Origin: a virus
Direction: 5' to 3' (one strand)
Virus record (IMG/VR): IMGVR_UViG_3300031566_000076
Coordinates: 1-47,002 of that record
Length of the DNA stretch: 47,002 nucleotides
Shown here: piece after piece, positions 11,842-18,533 of the stretch
How positions within the stretch are numbered: the stretch's first letter is position 1
How the letters are laid out: every line of letters begins with the position of its first letter
Notes under the pieces: model-generated
What the model was told of the DNA's origin: nothing
The model's input: only the letters and a program-made list of their open reading frames with translations
The model's database searches: none
Made by a program: the position numbers and the translations under genes

Positions 11842-12000
11842 ATGATACCGATAGAATTAGGAATAATAGTGATAATTGCGGCAATAATAGTAGCCTTTTT
11901 ATATGCAAAAATGATATTAATTTGGCGTAATGTAATGCTAAAACAAAATGAAAGATGGTTAAAAGATGCTGAAAGGCTACGGGAATTACGGTATGAGTAG
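11842..12000 (+). CDS. small membrane protein, 52 aa
   Basis: Begins MIPIELGIIVIIAAIIVAFL: one transmembrane span (residues about 5-22) and a basic amphipathic tail (ERWLKDAERLRELRYE). Its stop overlaps the ATG of the next gene (ATGAGTAG at 11993-12000), so the two are probably translated together. Confidence 0.55.
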   Translation: MIPIELGIIVIIAAIIVAFLYAKMILIWRNVMLKQNERWLKDAERLRELRYE

Positions 12001-12199
12001 TGGAACAATTAGAATGAAATTATACGGAAAATACAGGGATGTATGGGTATCTGATACAAAGAATTGTAAAAACTATAAGTGCTTTCATCCACACAACTGC
12101 ACAGTACAAGGAGCAAGGGGTGTTAGAAGTAGTACTGAAAGATATATGTGCCTTACAAATGTAAATCACGGATGTCCAAATGAACCACAAACGCAATAA
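11993..12199 (+). CDS. Cys-rich small protein, 68 aa
   Basis: I start at the ATG 11993-11995, which overlaps the preceding stop; an ATG nine codons upstream is possible. Cysteines at CKNYKC, HNC, MCL and GCP with His residues suggest metal binding or disulfides. No family recognised. After it, GTACAACGG and a short GGCA/TGCC stem resemble a damaged cassette end. Confidence 0.55.
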   Translation: MSSGTIRMKLYGKYRDVWVSDTKNCKNYKCFHPHNCTVQGARGVRSSTERYMCLTNVNHGCPNEPQTQ

Positions 12200-12275
12200 A
12201 AATTACTGCGTACAACGGTTTAAATATGGCAAGTGCCATCACAGACTTTAATTAAAAACACTAAAGATTAGAATT

Positions 12276-12650
12276 ATGAAAAGATTTACCCAAAGAATAC
12301 GAAAGGCATTTGATATATTTTTTGTTAGGCGTATGTACGTTATTACACAAATTGATAATGGCGTAAAATATTACTACAAGGGTGCAGATAGTAAATGGAC
12401 ACCAATTTTTGAAGGGGCTAAACACTATAAAAAGAAACCTGACTTTGATTGGATAAGTGAACTTTGGCATAAGGTAGAAGAGTATGACGCATTGTTAGGC
12501 GTAGTTGCTTCTGAAAAAGAACAAAAGGTATTGATTTGTAATAACTGTAAAAATATATGGATAGCACCAAAAGACAGATGTGATTGTGGATGCACTATAC
12601 TAACAGAAACGCACCCAAGCAACTATAAGTATGCTCGCAATTACGCCTAA
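12276..12650 (+). CDS. cassette gene with C-terminal zinc ribbon, 124 aa
   Basis: Basic N-terminus (MKRFTQRIRKAFDIFFVRR), middle acidic helix, then CNNC (about residue 89) and CDCGC (about 105-109), forming a zinc knuckle. Family not recognised. Its stop codon TAA lies within GCCTAACGG (12645-12653), a perfect RYYYAAC core, as seen for integron cassettes whose genes end in their attC site. Confidence 0.6.
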   Translation: MKRFTQRIRKAFDIFFVRRMYVITQIDNGVKYYYKGADSKWTPIFEGAKHYKKKPDFDWISELWHKVEEYDALLGVVASEKEQKVLICNNCKNIWIAPKDRCDCGCTILTETHPSNYKYARNYA

Positions 12651-12678
12651 CGGCTAAGGTATGCAGCGTTTGAGCGTT
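12645..12678 (+). other. attC-like site, probably truncated
   Basis: GCCTAAC at 12645-12651 matches RYYYAAC exactly and contains the stop of the upstream gene. The following CGGC...GCAGCGTTTGAG can fold back weakly, and GTTTGAG is a poor GTTRRRY. I read it as a short or eroded site. Confidence 0.45.
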
Positions 12679-12712
12679 TTAATTAATTAATACAAACTTA
12701 AAATAATATATT

Positions 12713-13000
12713 ATGATTGACAAATACGAACTAATTGAATGTTTAGAATGGTTACAAGATAAAGGCTTTATTCAGTTTAAAGAAAGTGCAAAAGTTGATA
12801 TGGTTGAAGAATATTTAAGTAATTGCGGTGGAGAAAATGCTGTATTACCTATTGTTATAAACCGTACATACAAATGTGATAGATGTGGTACTGTTTATAT
12901 ACCTGTAAGTGGAATTGTAAATGCAGGATGCTGCACTGCACCAGTAACGCATAGAACTAGCGGACTTTGTGGTGGTCAATTAACAGAAATTACTAGCTAA
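12713..13000 (+). CDS. cassette gene with zinc-binding C-terminus, 95 aa
   Basis: The N-terminal helical half begins MIDKYELIECLEWLQDKGFI. The C-terminal half has CDRC (about residue 59), CC (about 76) and LCGG, consistent with a zinc ribbon. No family recognised. The 70 bases to the next gene hold only a weak AATGTT/AACATT repeat. Confidence 0.6.
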   Translation: MIDKYELIECLEWLQDKGFIQFKESAKVDMVEEYLSNCGGENAVLPIVINRTYKCDRCGTVYIPVSGIVNAGCCTAPVTHRTSGLCGGQLTEITS

Positions 13001-13070
13001 GTATGGTTTATAATGTTGAATAAAATATGGGATGGAAAATTAAGAACATTAACTAAATAACAGATGAATT

Positions 13071-13289
13071 ATGGAAAATGTAGAAAAGAAAAAAATTACA
13101 AAAAAAGAATTAATTGATTTCTATAATAAAATGAAATCTAACGTAATCGAACAAGTTGGTTATATATGGTTACCCTCGATTGACGGATTTAAGATATTTG
13201 AAATACCTGCAGAAAGACTTGATCTGTACTTAAAGGCGGAAAGCATGCATAACCAATTATCAATTAATGAAATCAAAGAGAGTTCTTAA
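13071..13289 (+). CDS. cassette gene, 72 aa
   Basis: Starts MENVEKKKITKKELIDFYNK; helical and amphipathic, with IWLPSIDGFKIFEIP in the middle. No family recognised. It is followed directly by the nested hairpin at 13293-13365, part of a family shared with two other cassettes. Confidence 0.55.
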   Translation: MENVEKKKITKKELIDFYNKMKSNVIEQVGYIWLPSIDGFKIFEIPAERLDLYLKAESMHNQLSINEIKESS

Positions 13290-13292
13290 TTT

Positions 13293-13365
13293 TATTTCCT
13301 ATGATTTTTAGTTAAGATTTGTCGCTTGTAAAAGCACTAATTTACAGATAACTAAGTAGGAAATA
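13293..13365 (+). repeat. cassette-end hairpin, family member 1
   Basis: TATTTCCTA (13293-13301) pairs with TAGGAAATA (13357-13365), TTAGTTA (13308-13314) with TAACTAA (13349-13355), and GCTT with AAGC (13324-13335). The bulge is asymmetric, six bases against one. It is followed by GTGCGAAGGCATAT, almost identical to the sequence after the hairpin at 15342-15416. The stem arms differ between family members while the inner TTAGTTA and outer flank are kept. Confidence 0.65.
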
Positions 13366-13428
13366 GTGCGAAGGCATATTTTATTCAACATTAAGATCAA
13401 TCGGTTTTGGAATTTAAATTTGATAATT

Positions 13429-13662
13429 ATGAAAACATTATTAGAAGCATTAAATGATGAATACAAAGAAAAATTTGCAGCCTTGTTAATAGTTGCAGAA
13501 ATGTTTGAAAAAGAAGATGAATTAATATTTAAGGAATTACTTAAAAAAGCCGCTGGCTGTAAATTGATGATTAAAGAATATGAAGCTGAATTATCAAAAT
13601 TAAATACAGGGGAGAAAGGAAGGGTGAGCGACAGCGAACAGCGAAGGAGCGCAAGCGATTGA
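13429..13662 (+). CDS. cassette gene, helical protein, 77 aa
   Basis: I use the ATG at 13429-13431, after an A/T-rich leader, rather than a distant upstream GTG. It is helical and Glu/Lys rich; the last 17 residues (GEKGRVSDSEQRRSASD) are encoded by GC-rich DNA unlike the rest, as if a new 3' end was joined. The stop TGA ends one base before the attC-like site at 13663. Confidence 0.55.
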   Translation: MKTLLEALNDEYKEKFAALLIVAEMFEKEDELIFKELLKKAAGCKLMIKEYEAELSKLNTGEKGRVSDSEQRRSASD

Positions 13663-13718
13663 TCTTAACGGATGGCAATATGTGGCGTTTTTTCTATGCC
13701 ATATATTGCGTGTTAGGT
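13663..13718 (+). other. attC-like recombination site, best example
   Basis: 56 bp. Left core TCTTAAC (13663-13669), right core GTTAGGT (13712-13718), the latter a full GTTRRRY match and able to pair with the left core. Inside, GCAATATGTGGC pairs with GCCATATATTGC with one mismatch around a T-rich loop. Spacers between core and stem are five bases on the left and two on the right. Position, directly after a stop codon, and size fit integron attC sites. Confidence 0.65.
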
Positions 13719-13772
13719 GTCTGTAAAATAAAAAAATAGGGAAGGCAATTTTTAACTTAAATATATACAAAA

Positions 13773-14306
13773 ATGAAAAAGAATTATAGAGAAATTGAAT
13801 TTGGATTTGGAAACATCGAATCTGCTGTAAAAGAATTGAAAAGCCATAAAGATTTGGTTTGTGGAACATTTAACGGACAAATATTATACTCCGATATTGA
13901 TGATATGGATTCCGCTTACAAAAAAGTAACAGGAAGCACAAAGGCTGAATTTGATGAAGCTAGAAGATTGGAAAATGCAGAATATGAACGCCAAAAGAAA
14001 GAGCATAAAGAAGCAATACCACAGTTAACTATTGAATGGATAGAAAAAGGAAATAAAATACTCGACAAGAAACACCATAAGACTTGGGCTAAATGCGTTC
14101 CAATTAGACTTGGTGATTTGTATCGAGGAATGGAATTAGGAAACTGCCTTGAAATAGTTGAGCAATTAAATAAAGGTGCTGAACTTGAAAAAGTAAAACC
14201 ACTTATAGAAGACCAAGGACACTCTGGAATGTCTTTTGGCTTAGTTTGTTCTATGGTAAAAGATTTTTGCGATAGGGGTGCTGAATTTGTTAGCTATGTA
14301 CGTTAA
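13773..14306 (+). CDS. cassette gene, conserved-looking unknown, 177 aa
   Basis: Largest unknown of the array. Charged helical centre (about 55-90, EARRLENAEYERQKKEHKEA) and a C-terminal part with VPIRLGDLYRGMELGNCLEI and GHSGMSFGLVCSMVKDFCDRG, which has the look of a conserved globular domain found in mobile elements. I cannot name the family. No catalytic triad is evident. Confidence 0.6.
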   Translation: MKKNYREIEFGFGNIESAVKELKSHKDLVCGTFNGQILYSDIDDMDSAYKKVTGSTKAEFDEARRLENAEYERQKKEHKEAIPQLTIEWIEKGNKILDKKHHKTWAKCVPIRLGDLYRGMELGNCLEIVEQLNKGAELEKVKPLIEDQGHSGMSFGLVCSMVKDFCDRGAEFVSYVR

Positions 14307-14319
14307 TCAAATGGTTTTG

Positions 14320-14372
14320 CAAAAACCAAGGTGCGGTGGGATTTTTTTATTTTATTGCACCTAATGTTTTGG
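14320..14372 (+). other. attC-like site, diverged
   Basis: CAAAAAC (14320-14326) and GTTTTGG (14366-14372) form the outer pair; AGGTGC pairs with GCACCT inside, around a T-rich loop. The core sequences depart from RYYYAAC/GTTRRRY, but the AAC...GTT order and size match the site at 13663. Confidence 0.45.
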
Positions 14373-14438
14373 AGAATAAGGGATGGTTTTTAAGCTGTAT
14401 TAGAGATGAAATTTATTGTTAAACTAAAAATAAATATT

Positions 14439-14759
14439 ATGAATTTGATAAACATTGCAGATTTAGAAAACCCGAAAACGGGAAAAACTTACAGAGAAGA
14501 AAATAATGCTAAAGTACATAAGTACAAGATTGATGATCTAATTGAAATTATAGCTTGGGATGAAGATTGTGAGTACGGAGGAATGAGACTTTACGTAATT
14601 GGTTGCGTTAGAGACTGTGACGGCACTCCACTATATGTACTTGGTAGCAAGGGCATGGAATTATATCAGAAAGCATTTGTTAAACCTGATACTTGCTATA
14701 ATTTTAATTCTTTCTCGGGTTTTGGCGAAGAAAGTTTGAAGCTAGTTAAATCTGCTTAG
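14439..14759 (+). CDS. cassette gene, 106 aa
   Basis: Start ATG at 14439-14441, after AAACTAAAAATAAAT, the A-rich leader type of this genome. Beta-rich protein with repeated short loops (DEDCEYGGMRLYVIGCVRDC) suggesting an SH3-like or other small barrel; no family recognised. It is flanked by an 18-bp inverted repeat (14361-14378 and 14884-14901), so the whole cassette sits between complementary ends. Confidence 0.6.
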   Translation: MNLINIADLENPKTGKTYREENNAKVHKYKIDDLIEIIAWDEDCEYGGMRLYVIGCVRDCDGTPLYVLGSKGMELYQKAFVKPDTCYNFNSFSGFGEESLKLVKSA

Positions 14760-14793
14760 TATCTGAATAATATTTATTCTCTATTAAATGCAG

Positions 14794-14872
14794 CTTAAAA
14801 ACTTGCCCTTGATTCTTTAGTTAGAGGTTGTGATATTTGGTAAAAACCTTTATTAGAACGCAAGTTTTTAAG
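14794..14872 (+). repeat. cassette-end hairpin, family member 2
   Basis: CTTAAAAACTTGC (14794-14806) pairs perfectly with GCAAGTTTTTAAG (14860-14872). The left arm is followed by TTGATTCTTTAGTTAGAGG and the right arm by GCGTGAAGGAGTAT, both alignable with members at 13293 and 15342, although the arms themselves are different. Confidence 0.65.
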
Positions 14873-14897
14873 GCGTGAAGGAGTATTCTCCAAAACA

Positions 14898-14983
14898 TTA
14901 GAGTTAATGATATTAGGGTTTTTGTGTGGAGGGCGAGGAAGCGGGCGAAGCCCAATTTAGGATGGGCGTATCATTAACTCTAA
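14898..14983 (+). other. palindromic intercassette site with GC-rich loop
   Basis: TTAGAGTTAATGATA (14898-14912) pairs perfectly with TATCATTAACTCTAA (14969-14983). The loop includes GGGCGAAGCCC, a stable small hairpin. It lies between the end of one cassette (CCAAAACATTAG) and the start of the next (AACATCGCAGG), where an attC is expected. It has no gene. Confidence 0.6.
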
Positions 14984-15091
14984 CATCGCAGGTTATATGA
15001 GATGTAAATTCTACAACATTGATTGATAAAAGATAAAGTAACAAATTGAATATAATTATAAATTTAGTATAAACTAAAAAATAAAAAAGCG

Positions 15092-15295
15092 ATGGAACAA
15101 AAATTATTTACAGAGATGAAGATTAATAACGGAAATACTCATATAATAGCAAGATGTCCAGATGAAGATGATGAAATGTGCATTACTATTAAGAATAGAT
15201 ATAAAGTTAATTTTAGTATGACGCTTCAGGAAGCTAAAGACTTTGCAGACTTTATAAATGCACATGTTAAAAATGCTATTGAATCTAATAAATAG
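15092..15295 (+). CDS. cassette gene, 67 aa
   Basis: Small protein, beta-rich N-terminal half (ARCPDEDDEMCITIKN) and C-terminal helix (MTLQEAKDFADFINAHVKNA). The pattern resembles short DUFs that follow 'CITI...LTxxEAxxLAxxI', but I cannot name one. It lies within an 18-bp inverted repeat (14982-14999 and 15427-15444). Confidence 0.55.
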   Translation: MEQKLFTEMKINNGNTHIIARCPDEDDEMCITIKNRYKVNFSMTLQEAKDFADFINAHVKNAIESNK

Positions 15296-15341
15296 CGGAG
15301 CGTAAGCTTTTATTTTTTATAGATTCTGAGTTGTGGAATTT

Positions 15342-15416
15342 ATGTCTTATGATAACTTAGTTAATGGTAGTTGTTAGTGGTTTGAAAAGAACGTTTCAGA
15401 TACAGTCATAAGACAT
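15342..15416 (+). repeat. cassette-end hairpin, family member 3
   Basis: ATGTCTTATGA (15342-15352) pairs perfectly with TCATAAGACAT (15406-15416). Inner left sequence TAACTTAGTTAATGG and inner right TTTCAGATACAG match the member at 13293; the flank GTGCGGAAGGCATAT follows. The 46 bases between the preceding stop and the hairpin show no gene. Confidence 0.65.
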
Positions 15417-15441
15417 GTGCGGAAGGCATATAACCTGCGAT

Positions 15442-15619
15442 GTTAAAGGTAATTGTTGTTTAGCCTTTTCGTGTGTAGGCAAAAAGGAAGGTTTAAAATT
15501 ATCATGATTAGAGTAGTTACACTACCTAAATAGCAATAAATTTAATGTCATGTATTTGGCACCATTTACTTGACAATTTTAAATAGGAAGGTTTTTAGCG
15601 TGAAACAATTACCTTTAAC
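15442..15619 (+). other. geneless palindrome-bounded segment, 178 bp
   Basis: GTTAAAGGTAATTGTT (15442-15457) pairs perfectly with AACAATTACCTTTAAC (15604-15619). The interior has short repeats (GCCTTTTCG...AAAAAGGAAGG; GTAGTTACACTAC at about 15511-15523) but no open frame of note. It may be the long variable loop of an attC, or a cassette without a protein gene. Confidence 0.55.
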
Positions 15620-15694
15620 GGTTAGCTTAAGTGGAGTTTGCCAACAAATACAGGAAAGATTTAAACGAGAATATTAACCAATAATTTACGAGCG

Positions 15695-15976
15695 ATGGGA
15701 AAAAGTAAGTTAATAACAGTAGATGATATTTATATTGAATTAGAATCAATTTTTGATAACTTCGAATCTGGTTATAACAGGAGAATTGCTGTTTATAAAA
15801 AATTAAATGAATTATTACCAAACTGGGAAGGGCGTGTTAGCAAAAAGAAACAAACGAGTGAGCAAATTCCATTTGAAGCGTTGTTAGGAGTTTCGTTGCC
15901 TATATGTAAAAATTGTAAAAAAACGATGAAGATTGCAGCTTATGAATGTGAATGTGGAATAGTTAGAGAAGGATAG
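15695..15976 (+). CDS. cassette gene with C-terminal zinc ribbon, 93 aa
   Basis: Helical N-terminal domain (LITVDDIYIELESIFDNFES), then CKNC (about residue 73) and CECG (about 86-89) forming a compact zinc ribbon at the end. It is one of several cassette genes here ending in such a module. It sits between GTTAGC (15621) and CCTAAC (15986), the expected cassette boundaries. Confidence 0.6.
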   Translation: MGKSKLITVDDIYIELESIFDNFESGYNRRIAVYKKLNELLPNWEGRVSKKKQTSEQIPFEALLGVSLPICKNCKKTMKIAAYECECGIVREG

Positions 15977-15984
15977 GCAATGAC

Positions 15985-16114
15985 TCCTAACGAATTATGG
16001 TATGAAAAGTTGCGGATTTAATGGTAGAACTTTTCAGCCTACAACAAAATTAAATTAGAATTACAAACCTACGGATTGCTACGCACCCGCAATTTTTTAT
16101 ACCATGTGTTAGCG
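15985..16114 (+). other. attC-like recombination site, long form
   Basis: Left core TCCTAAC (15985-15991) and right core GTTAGCG (16108-16114). ATGGTATGAAAAGTTGCGG (15997-16015) pairs with CCGCAATTTTTTATACCAT (16087-16105), 17 of 19 as Watson-Crick pairs and the other two as G-T. The spacers are again five bases left and two right, as at 13663-13718. About 70 bases of variable loop contain no gene. Confidence 0.65.
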
Positions 16115-16134
16115 TTTCGTGCATTATTAAACAT

Positions 16135-16407
16135 ATGTCAAAAGTAATAGTTAGAAAAACAATCGCGACCAATTATCAATCTGAATTAGATTATCCAATT
16201 TACTTGAATTTTCAAAACGAAGATTGTTTGGATGAATTGGTTAAAGTTGACGAAAAGTATAGAATAACCGTAAAGCATAATCATTTTGGTTTTGAAATTG
16301 ATTACTCTACAATGAACACTATATTTGAACATGACCTATGTAGTTTAACTACAAAAGAACATTTTGAGCAATTTTTAGATGAGGCAATTAAAATATTAAA
16401 CAAATGA
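16135..16407 (+). CDS. cassette gene, 90 aa
   Basis: Starts MSKVIVRKTIATNYQSELDY; acidic beta/alpha protein with no recognised family. It overlaps the next gene by four bases (ATGA), so this cassette carries a two-gene pair. Both are flanked by GTTAGCGTTTCGTGCA (16108) and TGCATGAACGCTAAC (16642). Confidence 0.55.
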   Translation: MSKVIVRKTIATNYQSELDYPIYLNFQNEDCLDELVKVDEKYRITVKHNHFGFEIDYSTMNTIFEHDLCSLTTKEHFEQFLDEAIKILNK

Positions 16408-16655
16408 AACCTGACTTTTTTCAAATAAAAAAAGGATGCTATAAAATCGGCATTAACCAATTTATATCTGGAATGGATAATAAACCAGTAGTTCGAGTAG
16501 AATGCGTAAATGATTATACCCACGCTCAGGATATAGATGACGAATGGATAGACGAACAAATTTGCGCTATGTTTACATTTAGGAATATAGATGATTATGA
16601 TTTATTTATTCAAAAGTTGCAAGATGCACGGTCGTTTCTTTTGCATGAACGCTAA
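16404..16655 (+). CDS. cassette gene, 83 aa, pairs with upstream gene
   Basis: Begins MKPDFFQIKKGCYKIGINQF. Length, acidity and the C-terminal pattern (FRNIDDYDLFIQKLQDARSFL) resemble the upstream 90-aa protein's end (FEQFLDEAIKILNK), hinting at a distant duplication or a toxin/antitoxin-like pair, but this is weak. Its TAA lies in CGCTAAC, the cassette-end core. Confidence 0.55.
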   Translation: MKPDFFQIKKGCYKIGINQFISGMDNKPVVRVECVNDYTHAQDIDDEWIDEQICAMFTFRNIDDYDLFIQKLQDARSFLLHER

Positions 16656-16703
16656 CAACGGTAAGCATAAACAACGTACGCACAGTTTAGTATAAAAGAT
16701 AAA

Positions 16704-16979
16704 TTGAAAAACAAAAATAAAAAGCGAAGCGTGGGAAAAGTTATTATAGTTTTTTTAAGCCAGTTGATTTTCGGATTCGTAAGAAACCTTAACACAAGAT
16801 ACGTATCTAAAGAAAATGTAAAATTAAGCGTGATAACTGGGTTTTTAGTAAAAACATCTTGGTTAGTAGCTACATATTTAGGAGTTTCTTCATTAATAGA
16901 AGGAAATTATATAGTAACTGCATTTTATATAATAGGTGGGGTGTTAGGTGATTATTTATCGTTTAAAATTAAAATATGA
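16704..16979 (+). CDS. multi-span membrane protein, 82-91 aa
   Basis: Either the TTG at 16704 or the GTG at 16731 is the start; no ATG is available, and the GTG follows the same AAAAAGCG-type leader as the 15092 and 15695 genes. Three hydrophobic segments (about residues 12-26, 43-63 and 70-86 of the long form) with FGFVRNLNTRYVS between the first two. No named family. It overlaps the PP-loop gene by four bases, so the two probably act together. Confidence 0.55.
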   Translation: MKNKNKKRSVGKVIIVFLSQLIFGFVRNLNTRYVSKENVKLSVITGFLVKTSWLVATYLGVSSLIEGNYIVTAFYIIGGVLGDYLSFKIKI

Positions 16980-17734
16980 AACAATTTATAAGTTTTAGTG
17001 GTGGCGTTGAAAGCTCAACGATGTGTGTTTTGTTTGGAAATAAAGCAGATGCTATATTTTGCGATACTGGTTTTGAACATGAAGAAATTTATAAAAGAAT
17101 TGATTTGGTTGAACATTGGGTTAAAAACTTTCATAGATCAGATTTTAAAATACATAGAATACAAAACGAAAAGCATGGAAGTTTAATTGACTACATAAAA
17201 GAAGCAAAGTTTTATCCAAGTTTCCAAGCTAGATATTGCACTAGGATGTTTAAAATTGAACCTATTGATAAATACCTAGAGCAATTTAAAGCCGATGGCG
17301 TTGAATTAATGATTGGTTTAAATGCTGATGAAATAGAACAAAGAACTGGAAACCACGGAAATAAAAAGTTTGTTAAATATAGCTACCCTTTAGCCGATAA
17401 TAATTTAACTAGACAGGCTTGCATAGCAATATTAAAGAAAGTTGATTTATATCCTGAATTTCCTGCTTATATGAGGCGTGGCGGTTGCGTAGGCTGTTAC
17501 TATAAAAGTATAAAAGAATATGAAGCAATGGCATTATTGAACCCAAAAGAGTTTAATATAGTACAACTTTTGGAAGAAGAGATTCAAGACATTAGAAAGG
17601 AGTATTTTAGTATAAAACAAAATATTACGATGAAACAAATAAAAGAAAATGTTTCTAATATGTTATTTAAACCAGATGATATTTATCCAATAATTAACGA
17701 TGCCACAAAATGTGGTGTATTTTGTAACCGATAA
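16976..17734 (+). CDS. PP-loop ATPase, PAPS reductase/DndC-like, 252 aa
   Basis: N-type ATP-pyrophosphatase: PP-loop SFSGGVESS (residues about 5-13), then RYCTRMFKIEP (about 87-97) and a Cys motif GGCVGCYY (about 169-176). The C-terminus has KCGVFC. The family includes PAPS/APS reductases, DndC of DNA phosphorothioation and many phage members of unknown substrate. No IscS/DndD/DndE partners are nearby, so DNA phosphorothioation is not supported. It is the best recognised enzyme of the array and is translationally coupled to a membrane protein. Confidence 0.8.
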   Translation: MKQFISFSGGVESSTMCVLFGNKADAIFCDTGFEHEEIYKRIDLVEHWVKNFHRSDFKIHRIQNEKHGSLIDYIKEAKFYPSFQARYCTRMFKIEPIDKYLEQFKADGVELMIGLNADEIEQRTGNHGNKKFVKYSYPLADNNLTRQACIAILKKVDLYPEFPAYMRRGGCVGCYYKSIKEYEAMALLNPKEFNIVQLLEEEIQDIRKEYFSIKQNITMKQIKENVSNMLFKPDDIYPIINDATKCGVFCNR

Positions 17735-17744
17735 AAATAAAAAC

Positions 17745-17963
17745 ATGAAAGACGAAGAAATTAAAAAAGAATTAAAGAAATTAAAAGAACAAAGATTAGA
17801 AATCAATAATCAGATTTCCAGAATTGAGAAAGAATGTCAACACATATGGAAACATGGTTACTTGGCAGAACCTATTATTTATTGCGAAATATGTGATAGA
17901 GAAATACAGGATGTTTACTCCAATATGAGTAATAGGGATATTGAAAAATTAATAGGAAAGTAA
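17745..17963 (+). CDS. small coiled-coil plus zinc-site protein, 72 aa
   Basis: I start at the ATG 17745-17747, 10 bases after the PP-loop gene's stop. Residues 1-32 are a Lys/Glu coiled coil; then ECQHIWKHG and CEIC form a probable Cys/His zinc site. The same architecture (helical part plus C-terminal zinc site) occurs in several other cassette genes here. Confidence 0.55.
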   Translation: MKDEEIKKELKKLKEQRLEINNQISRIEKECQHIWKHGYLAEPIIYCEICDREIQDVYSNMSNRDIEKLIGK

Positions 17964-18242
17964 TAATTATTAAACGTTTGGAACAAACGTAATGAGCGTG
18001 GGGCTTTTTATTTTAGATTAATAACGTAAGATGTTAATTAAATGAAAGGATAAGTATGGTGTTTGATGCATTGTTATGTGGTGGGAATGGATTGTGCGAA
18101 TTTCGGCTTTAGTTTTGCCGATTAAAACCGAGCAACTTTATACCATAATACTGTAAAGTTTGTGGTGTTGTAAAAGTTGCGATGGTTGAGGCAAAATTAC
18201 ACATAACTATGTTGTATATACCATTTAATTTGTAATTGAATT
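17964..18242 (+). other. 279-bp intergenic region with palindromes, no gene
   Basis: Contains a hairpin ACGTTTG-GAA-CAAACGT (17974-17990), a cassette-like outer repeat GTTATGTG (18073-18080)/CACATAAC (18200-18207), a hairpin around TTTCGGC/GCCGATT (about 18102-18124) and GCAACTTT/AAAGTTGC (about 18133-18180). The piece between the GTTATGTG and CACATAAC ends looks like a second geneless cassette. No open frame of note. Confidence 0.5.
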
Positions 18243-18533
18243 ATGAAAGTAATTGAATTTGAGAGAGATAGTTTACAATTAAAATATTTAATTACTACTC
18301 ACAGACTTATTGGATTTAAAAATATAGTTGTTTCAAATAAAAAAATATATCAATTGCCTTGCATGATAGGTAAAAGATCGTATGATTTAAAAGAAATAAA
18401 ACCAAAATATCATATGTGTATGATTCATTATATTATTGAATCAAAAAGATATTCAATTAAGCAATTAAAAAAATTAATAGTAAGATTTGATGATAAGATA
18501 TTAATAGAAAAAACGCCATTATATCCGTTTTAA
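18243..18533 (+). CDS. last plus-strand gene, hypothetical, 96 aa
   Basis: Basic Ile/Lys-rich protein beginning MKVIEFERDSLQLKYLITTH; no family recognised. It ends one base before the convergent minus-strand lysis genes, with no terminator hairpin visible between them. Unlike the other array genes it has no attC-like site after it, so it may belong to the phage rather than to a cassette. Confidence 0.55.
   Translation: MKVIEFERDSLQLKYLITTHRLIGFKNIVVSNKKIYQLPCMIGKRSYDLKEIKPKYHMCMIHYIIESKRYSIKQLKKLIVRFDDKILIEKTPLYPF

Follow-up and report, generated by a model that had tools for sequence, protein, structure and literature searches.

A stretch of viral DNA of 47,002 nucleotides from IMG/VR (IMGVR_UViG_3300031566_000076), analysed here in its full length and referred to as the window, encodes a contractile-tail structural set (sheath, baseplate and major head protein) and, amid minus-strand genes, a block of small plus-strand genes separated by palindromic spacers. 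This locus raises the question of what kind of element the block is and how a phage could have gathered it. In the current analysis the block is interpreted, with a probability of about 80%, as an integron-type cassette array of a class widespread in phages of Bacteroidota. The window phage has the array and no recombinase, and its cassettes have therefore most likely been acquired through the recombinase of another element.

Structure of the array in the window

Whereas about 0.06 would be expected per 7.2 kb, the array region contains six perfect inverted repeats of at least 14 bp within 700 bp, and the perfect inverted repeats of 13-19 bp in the block adjoin end to end. The block has been described by a dynamic-programming chain that alternates a 'body' (a TT...AA inverted repeat around a gene) with an 'attC' (an AAC...GTT hairpin). 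The chain comprises 15 alternating segments between 12495 and 16655, and neighbouring boundaries coincide to the base. Its score is 83.5, compared with a best of 18.7 among 300 first-order shuffles and at most 13.7 in the rest of the window. An initial version of the chain, in which the core had to carry C or G, misplaced the AAT/ATT sites, and the core rule was relaxed.

The first-pass annotation had described, from 11993 to 18242, an alternation of small plus-strand genes and palindromic DNA. The alternation is real and far beyond chance; the span is better given as about 12216-16657, with an additional attC at 12216-12324, while convincing sites are absent among the plus-strand genes at 16704-18533. 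The two sites singled out in that annotation are correct (13669-13712 and 15991-16108 between the crossover points), as are the two stop codons, at 12650 and 16655, which fall inside the TAA(C) core. By our own scoring, seven attC-type hairpins lie in the chain and one more at 12216-12324, where two close sites suffice to define a cluster of attC sites lacking integron integrases (CALIN). The recombinase family PF00589 has no match by profile search in the 47-kb record or in its 38-kb twin, which bears out the earlier statement that no tyrosine recombinase is encoded there, and no integron integrase is thus found near the sites. An IntI with the IntI-specific domain and an attI-like site, both expected of an integron, are absent from the window. 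A search of the window against Rfam has given zero matches at the gathering threshold. These results support calling the block a CALIN-like phage array.

Three oversized attCs (13014-13390, 14365-14897 and 14984-15442) each enclose a whole gene with its own repeat pair and a second hairpin. Their layout resembles an attC loop that has received an inserted body-plus-hairpin unit; insertion at a secondary site via the other strand, or decay once the recombinase was lost, are possible origins. The right halves of these three sites have a GTGCGAAGG-like sequence in common.

Units and site class shared with other phages

A unit of the window recurs at 87% identity in the phage contig L026, the match running from the AA^C of the attC (^ marking the crossover) to the end of the body. 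The attC present in L026 just before 12494 has been deleted in the window, so that two open reading frames (ORFs) are fused as ORF 12276-12650. Apart from the twin, eight other phage contigs carry members of the family of the 177-residue gene at 13773, mostly as cassettes, and a further member lies in one prophage of a Flavobacteriales metagenome-assembled genome. The gene at 14406, which lies in an attC loop in the window, forms an ordinary cassette body in L038/L039. Long clean arrays are seen in L038/L039 (chain score 135.6, 14 bodies), L032 (94) and L034 (58). Two cassette proteins of the window have no matches in named phages.

The attCs of these arrays have a common signature, with NNNTAACG..TATG.. 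on the left and ..TATA..TGTTA on the right, and their sizes cluster at about 80-89 and 110-129 bp. The same signature is found in Polaribacter phage P12002L, whose site class was found by IntegronFinder/HattCI (PMC9892861), the sites of the window being called by our own scoring. A DNA pattern scan for the commonest attC stem has revealed four stretches, two of them in records already found. An alignment of the attCs with MAFFT for a covariance model was abandoned as the stems aligned poorly, and anchored pairwise scoring was used instead.

Phages related by their tail sheath have no arrays, apart from one weak chain (G004, contig L017, score 28.3) which has been rejected as an array, being driven by a single palindrome. 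This is a 42-bp perfect inverted repeat with 421 bp between its arms (L017, 4474-4978), situated at the contig end and outside any cassette chain. Homologues of the genes flanking the window array are also absent from the sheath-related phages, which are hence unusable as empty-site controls. Among the nearest named phages is the Ficleduovirus FCV-1 of Flavobacterium columnare, a distant relative (tail sheath 49% identical) with neither an array nor homologues of the array-flanking genes.

The mobile unit and the strand of the hairpin

Homologous blocks have been compared among 44 arrays comprising 226 bodies and 269 attCs. With at least 30 bp required on each side, blocks have been counted to span the G^TT boundary in 87 cases and the AA^C boundary in 5, and the junction of array and recombinase gene makes up most of these five. 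Since the blocks span G^TT and seldom AA^C, the mobile unit is an attC with the gene that follows it, joined at AA^C in the direction of the gene. The unit is thus inverted with respect to standard integrons, in agreement with the position of the attI-like site described below. The attC-like cassette array proposed in the first-pass annotation stands, but not its view that a cassette ends in its attC, as the hairpin lies 5' of the gene.

Independently of this comparison, folding favours the gene strand: at 155 of 174 sites its hairpin has a greater stability than that of the complement (Wilcoxon p=1.5e-24), because its G.T pairs become A.C mismatches on the other strand. All eight sites of the window have the more stable hairpin on the gene strand.

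Many ORFs begin in the loop of an attC and continue through its right half into the body that follows, as in the window (12713-13000 and 15695-15976), in L038 (3290-3466, 5137-5388 and 5856-6161) and in L026 (3361-3618). The hairpin itself is protein-coding in these ORFs, and their products are often zinc-ribbon-like. Reading such ORFs, in frame through G^TT, as fusions of two cassettes and hence as domain shuffling across attC has been dropped, since an attC and the following body constitute one unit and the ORFs lie within a single cassette.

Recombinase and attI-like junction in related phages

Two array-bearing phages encode a tyrosine recombinase of 266-267 residues at the 3' end of the array. 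Its best profile is NF040815 (175 bits), and the XerA, IntI and Xer profiles all remain below their curated cut-offs. Alignment with IntI4 reveals that the extra domain specific to IntI, the accepted mark of that family (PMC9668308), is missing. Its classification as IntI proper has been rejected, as all matches including that to TIGR02249 are under cut-off. The phage recombinase shares its size and catalytic residues with XerA, XerC and XerD (NF040815, TIGR02224, TIGR02225), but it is under every curated cut-off and is situated at cassette arrays and not at dif-like sites.

A scan of viral sequences has identified 67 loci with relatives of this Xer/IntI-like recombinase of about 266 residues. 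In about 36 of the 42 non-redundant loci having upstream sequence, an array score of at least 20 (exactly 20.0 in one) is found directly upstream; the upstream scores of the five weakest recombinase matches (24-30% identity) are 7-13. The catalytic R, K, H, R and Y are conserved in 46 of 46 recombinase sequences and the second H in 44 of 46. The last cassette passes into the recombinase gene through a conserved attI-like junction, TAAC-TATTATATATA, which in most loci reads TAAC-TA(T/C)TATATATA. Tyrosine recombinases are absent from the window, the twin, L026, L032 and L038/L039; the adjacent recombinase together with the junction, a feature of many arrays of this group, is lacking in the window as well as in L032, L026 and L038/L039.

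Array turnover in near-identical phages

Arrays differ between members of the near-identical pairs L103/L104 and L087/L088, with TAAC breakpoints on both sides, and between the near-identical L068 and L069, with a TAAC breakpoint on the recombinase side. L063 and L064 share 6,851 bp at 99.97% identity adjoining different arrays. The cultured isolates of Polaribacter phage Freya (MT732463-MT732472; L163, L164, L168-L174) vary by whole cassette blocks. Compared to Freya_10, 4,942 bp are missing from Freya_1, 4,100 bp from Freya_2, 3,198 bp from Freya_5 and 902 bp from Freya_8. Each junction falls precisely at AA^C; three involve the attI-like site, and the fourth (Freya_8) connects two attCs. 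Elsewhere the isolates are 99.7-100% identical in the compared sequence. The same genes in a fixed order in related phages would have spoken against a cassette array; the units are instead found in other neighbourhoods, and near-identical phages differ in their arrays.

Relatives in host genomes and plasmids

Of 300 genomes from one Flavobacteriales family, 184 encode relatives of the recombinase (E<=1e-40), mostly of about 375-395 residues. The array begins just past the recombinase gene in several of these host regions (L152, L153 and L155), and L162, also from a Flavobacteriales genome, has the phage layout of recombinase and array. On a Chryseobacterium plasmid (NZ_CP041688, L176) a recombinase relative likewise lies beside an array that begins just past its gene. 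The occurrence of host recombinases next to arrays makes an enzyme acting in trans plausible for the window phage, though it would not be IntI. Another Flavobacteriales genome (L159) has a host recombinase relative adjoining a cassette array that begins just past the recombinase gene. On the Acinetobacter baylyi plasmid pJAT2044 (NZ_CP104735, L175) a related tyrosine recombinase of 222 residues directly adjoins tet(X3), and the chain score detects no array there.

Proposed mechanism and comparison with known systems

A cassette consists of one attC hairpin followed, in the direction of the gene, by a small gene. The hairpin is suggested to form on the gene strand, with cassettes joined at the AA^C of that strand, mirroring the usual layout of integrons; a chemistry of single-stranded hairpins is presumed. 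In many phages the array adjoins the attI-like TAAC-TATTATATATA and then a dedicated recombinase of about 266 residues without the IntI-specific domain. The window cassettes have most likely been acquired via a recombinase supplied by another phage, a prophage or a host element in the same cell, which could perhaps also move them in trans. In broader terms, Bacteroidota phages probably own a self-contained integron-like device, made up of a Xer-type recombinase lacking the IntI domain, an attI and inverted hairpin cassettes that are exchanged among phages. The 'integrase' of many of them would then be a cassette recombinase and not a sign of lysogeny, and the window would be a satellite array served in trans.

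CALINs of virulent phages have been published in 2023 (Qi et al., PMC9892861). That work covers P12002L, one site of which recombined with IntI1 in an assay. The window resembles these phage CALINs in having attC arrays without an integrase, P12002L also sharing the attC signature, and taken alone it would be a further member of that known kind; it differs from them in its oversized and nested attCs. A dedicated phage recombinase, an attI-like site, an inverted unit or isolate variants are not described in that work. In the open literature searched, with subscription journals and preprints outside the scope, no linked recombinase lacking the IntI domain, attI-like site, inverted cassettes or isolate variants of this kind have been found. 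The first-pass annotation had considered that the cassettes came in by a host enzyme or by a mechanism new to phages. Phage CALINs are a published precedent, and a host IntI is not required, as many Bacteroidota phages encode the dedicated recombinase.

Integrons are similar to the arrays of the relatives in their hairpin attC, circular-cassette logic, G|TT core and an attI-like site by the recombinase. The phage group is unlike them in its recombinase without the IntI-specific domain, its attC 5' of the gene (the integron cassette being a gene and then its attC), its genes directed toward the recombinase and its crossover at AA^C on the gene strand.

Alternative explanations

Several points weigh against the interpretation as a mobile cassette array. 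The window phage has neither a recombinase nor an attI-like site, and array size variants are not available for it, the sole twin record being identical. The attC scoring scheme is our own, and the assignment of the phage recombinase to the cassette reaction is suggested by the position of its gene only. Five attCs of the window are oversized (204-533 bp) or nested, enclosing entire genes or the starts of genes, and in two the crossover carries A-T in place of C-G. These features suggest that some of the sites may be dead.

An extension of this argument, to which we assign somewhat less than even odds, is that the array is decayed: the recombinase was lost by the phage or an ancestor, and recombination at the sites has ceased. 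The attC deleted at 12490 and the AAT/ATT cores would agree with it, along with the missing recombinase and attI-like site and the oversized and nested attCs, but little decay is visible in the long perfect repeats of 15-19 bp, and L038/L039 and L032 have clean arrays although they too lack a recombinase.

It is unlikely that the block is a bacterial CALIN of the ordinary kind, broken off from the chromosomal integron of a Bacteroidota host and gained by illegitimate recombination with no phage-specific system involved. Precedent exists in the published phage CALINs, and the chromosomes of one Flavobacteriales family carry arrays beside related recombinases. The units of the window, however, match phage arrays, the 13773 family occurs in a single genome contig, itself prophage-like, against nine viral contigs, and the recombinase-bearing phage arrays have the same site class and gene families.

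It is more improbable still that the array-adjacent 'integrase' is an ordinary lysogeny integrase with unrelated hairpins nearby. The paper on Freya, Leef, Danklef and Ingeline takes the integrase to indicate that the phages are temperate, with integrons and cassettes unmentioned (PMC8776804), and Ingeline carries a second integrase. Lysogeny leaves unexplained that the variable segments are cut exactly at the attC AA^C, by attI x attC and, in Freya_8, attC x attC exchange. The conserved junction TAAC-TATTATATATA is itself the breakpoint.

Palindromes arising by chance, or terminators of transcription in the spacers of a phage genome, suggested by the AT-rich sequence and some terminator-like spacers, have a negligible probability and are refuted by a chain score and common boundaries far above those of shuffles and control phages, by the homology-block boundaries and by the cuts in the Freya isolates.

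Features of the array

The coordinates are collected in Table 1. Just 3' of the array, 16976-17734 encodes a PAPS-reductase-like protein (PF01507) with distant relatives in many phages.

Table 1. Segments of the cassette array in the window (chain, dynamic-programming chain)
Feature	Coordinates	Strand	Basis or remark
Entire cassette array	12216..16657	+	Unit read as attC and following body, crossover AA^C; chain
First attC	12216..12324	+	87% identical in L026, match starting at the same AA^C
Body, ORF from ATG 12331	12325..12490	+	Next attC deleted compared to L026
Body; 3' part of ORF zinc-ribbon-like, with its stop codon in the TAA core	12495..12650	+	Chain
Oversized attC, 204 bp, contains start of ORF 12713-13000	12651..12854	+	Chain
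Body, zinc-ribbon-like part of ORF 12713-13000	12855..13013	+	Chain
Oversized attC, AAT/ATT core; loop with gene 13071-13289 and further hairpin	13014..13390	+	Repeats, chain
Body, gene 13429-13662, terminal repeat 13 bp	13391..13668	+	Repeats, chain
Plain short attC (first site of the first-pass annotation)	13669..13712	+	Chain
Body, 177-residue gene 13773-14306	13713..14364	+	Chain, homologues elsewhere
Oversized attC; loop with gene 14406-14759, own repeats and hairpin	14365..14897	+	Repeats, chain
Short geneless body, perfect terminal repeat 15 bp	14898..14983	+	Repeats, chain
Oversized attC; loop with gene 15092-15295 and further hairpin	14984..15442	+	Repeats, chain
Geneless body, perfect terminal repeat 16 bp	15443..15618	+	Repeats, chain
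Oversized attC, contains start of ORF 15695-15976	15619..15883	+	Chain
Body, zinc-ribbon-like part of ORF 15695-15976	15884..15990	+	Chain
attC of the common 118-bp class (second site of the first-pass annotation)	15991..16108	+	Chain
Final body with genes 16135-16407 and 16404-16655; stop codon in the TAA core	16109..16655	+	Chain

Implications for Bacteroidota phages

If this interpretation is true, small accessory genes would be shuffled among phages by a site-specific route, beside the homologous and illegitimate recombination usually credited for mosaicism, and a class of 'orphan' phage attC arrays would be accounted for. The 'integrase' genes of Bacteroidota phages could then no longer be taken as plain markers of lysogeny, and the IntI-specific domain would perhaps be dispensable for cassette recombination. 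The related recombinases beside arrays on Bacteroidota chromosomes and plasmids, and beside tet(X3), provide a lead that the family may matter for resistance genes. The cultured Freya isolates make the proposed cassette-exchange device of these phages directly testable.

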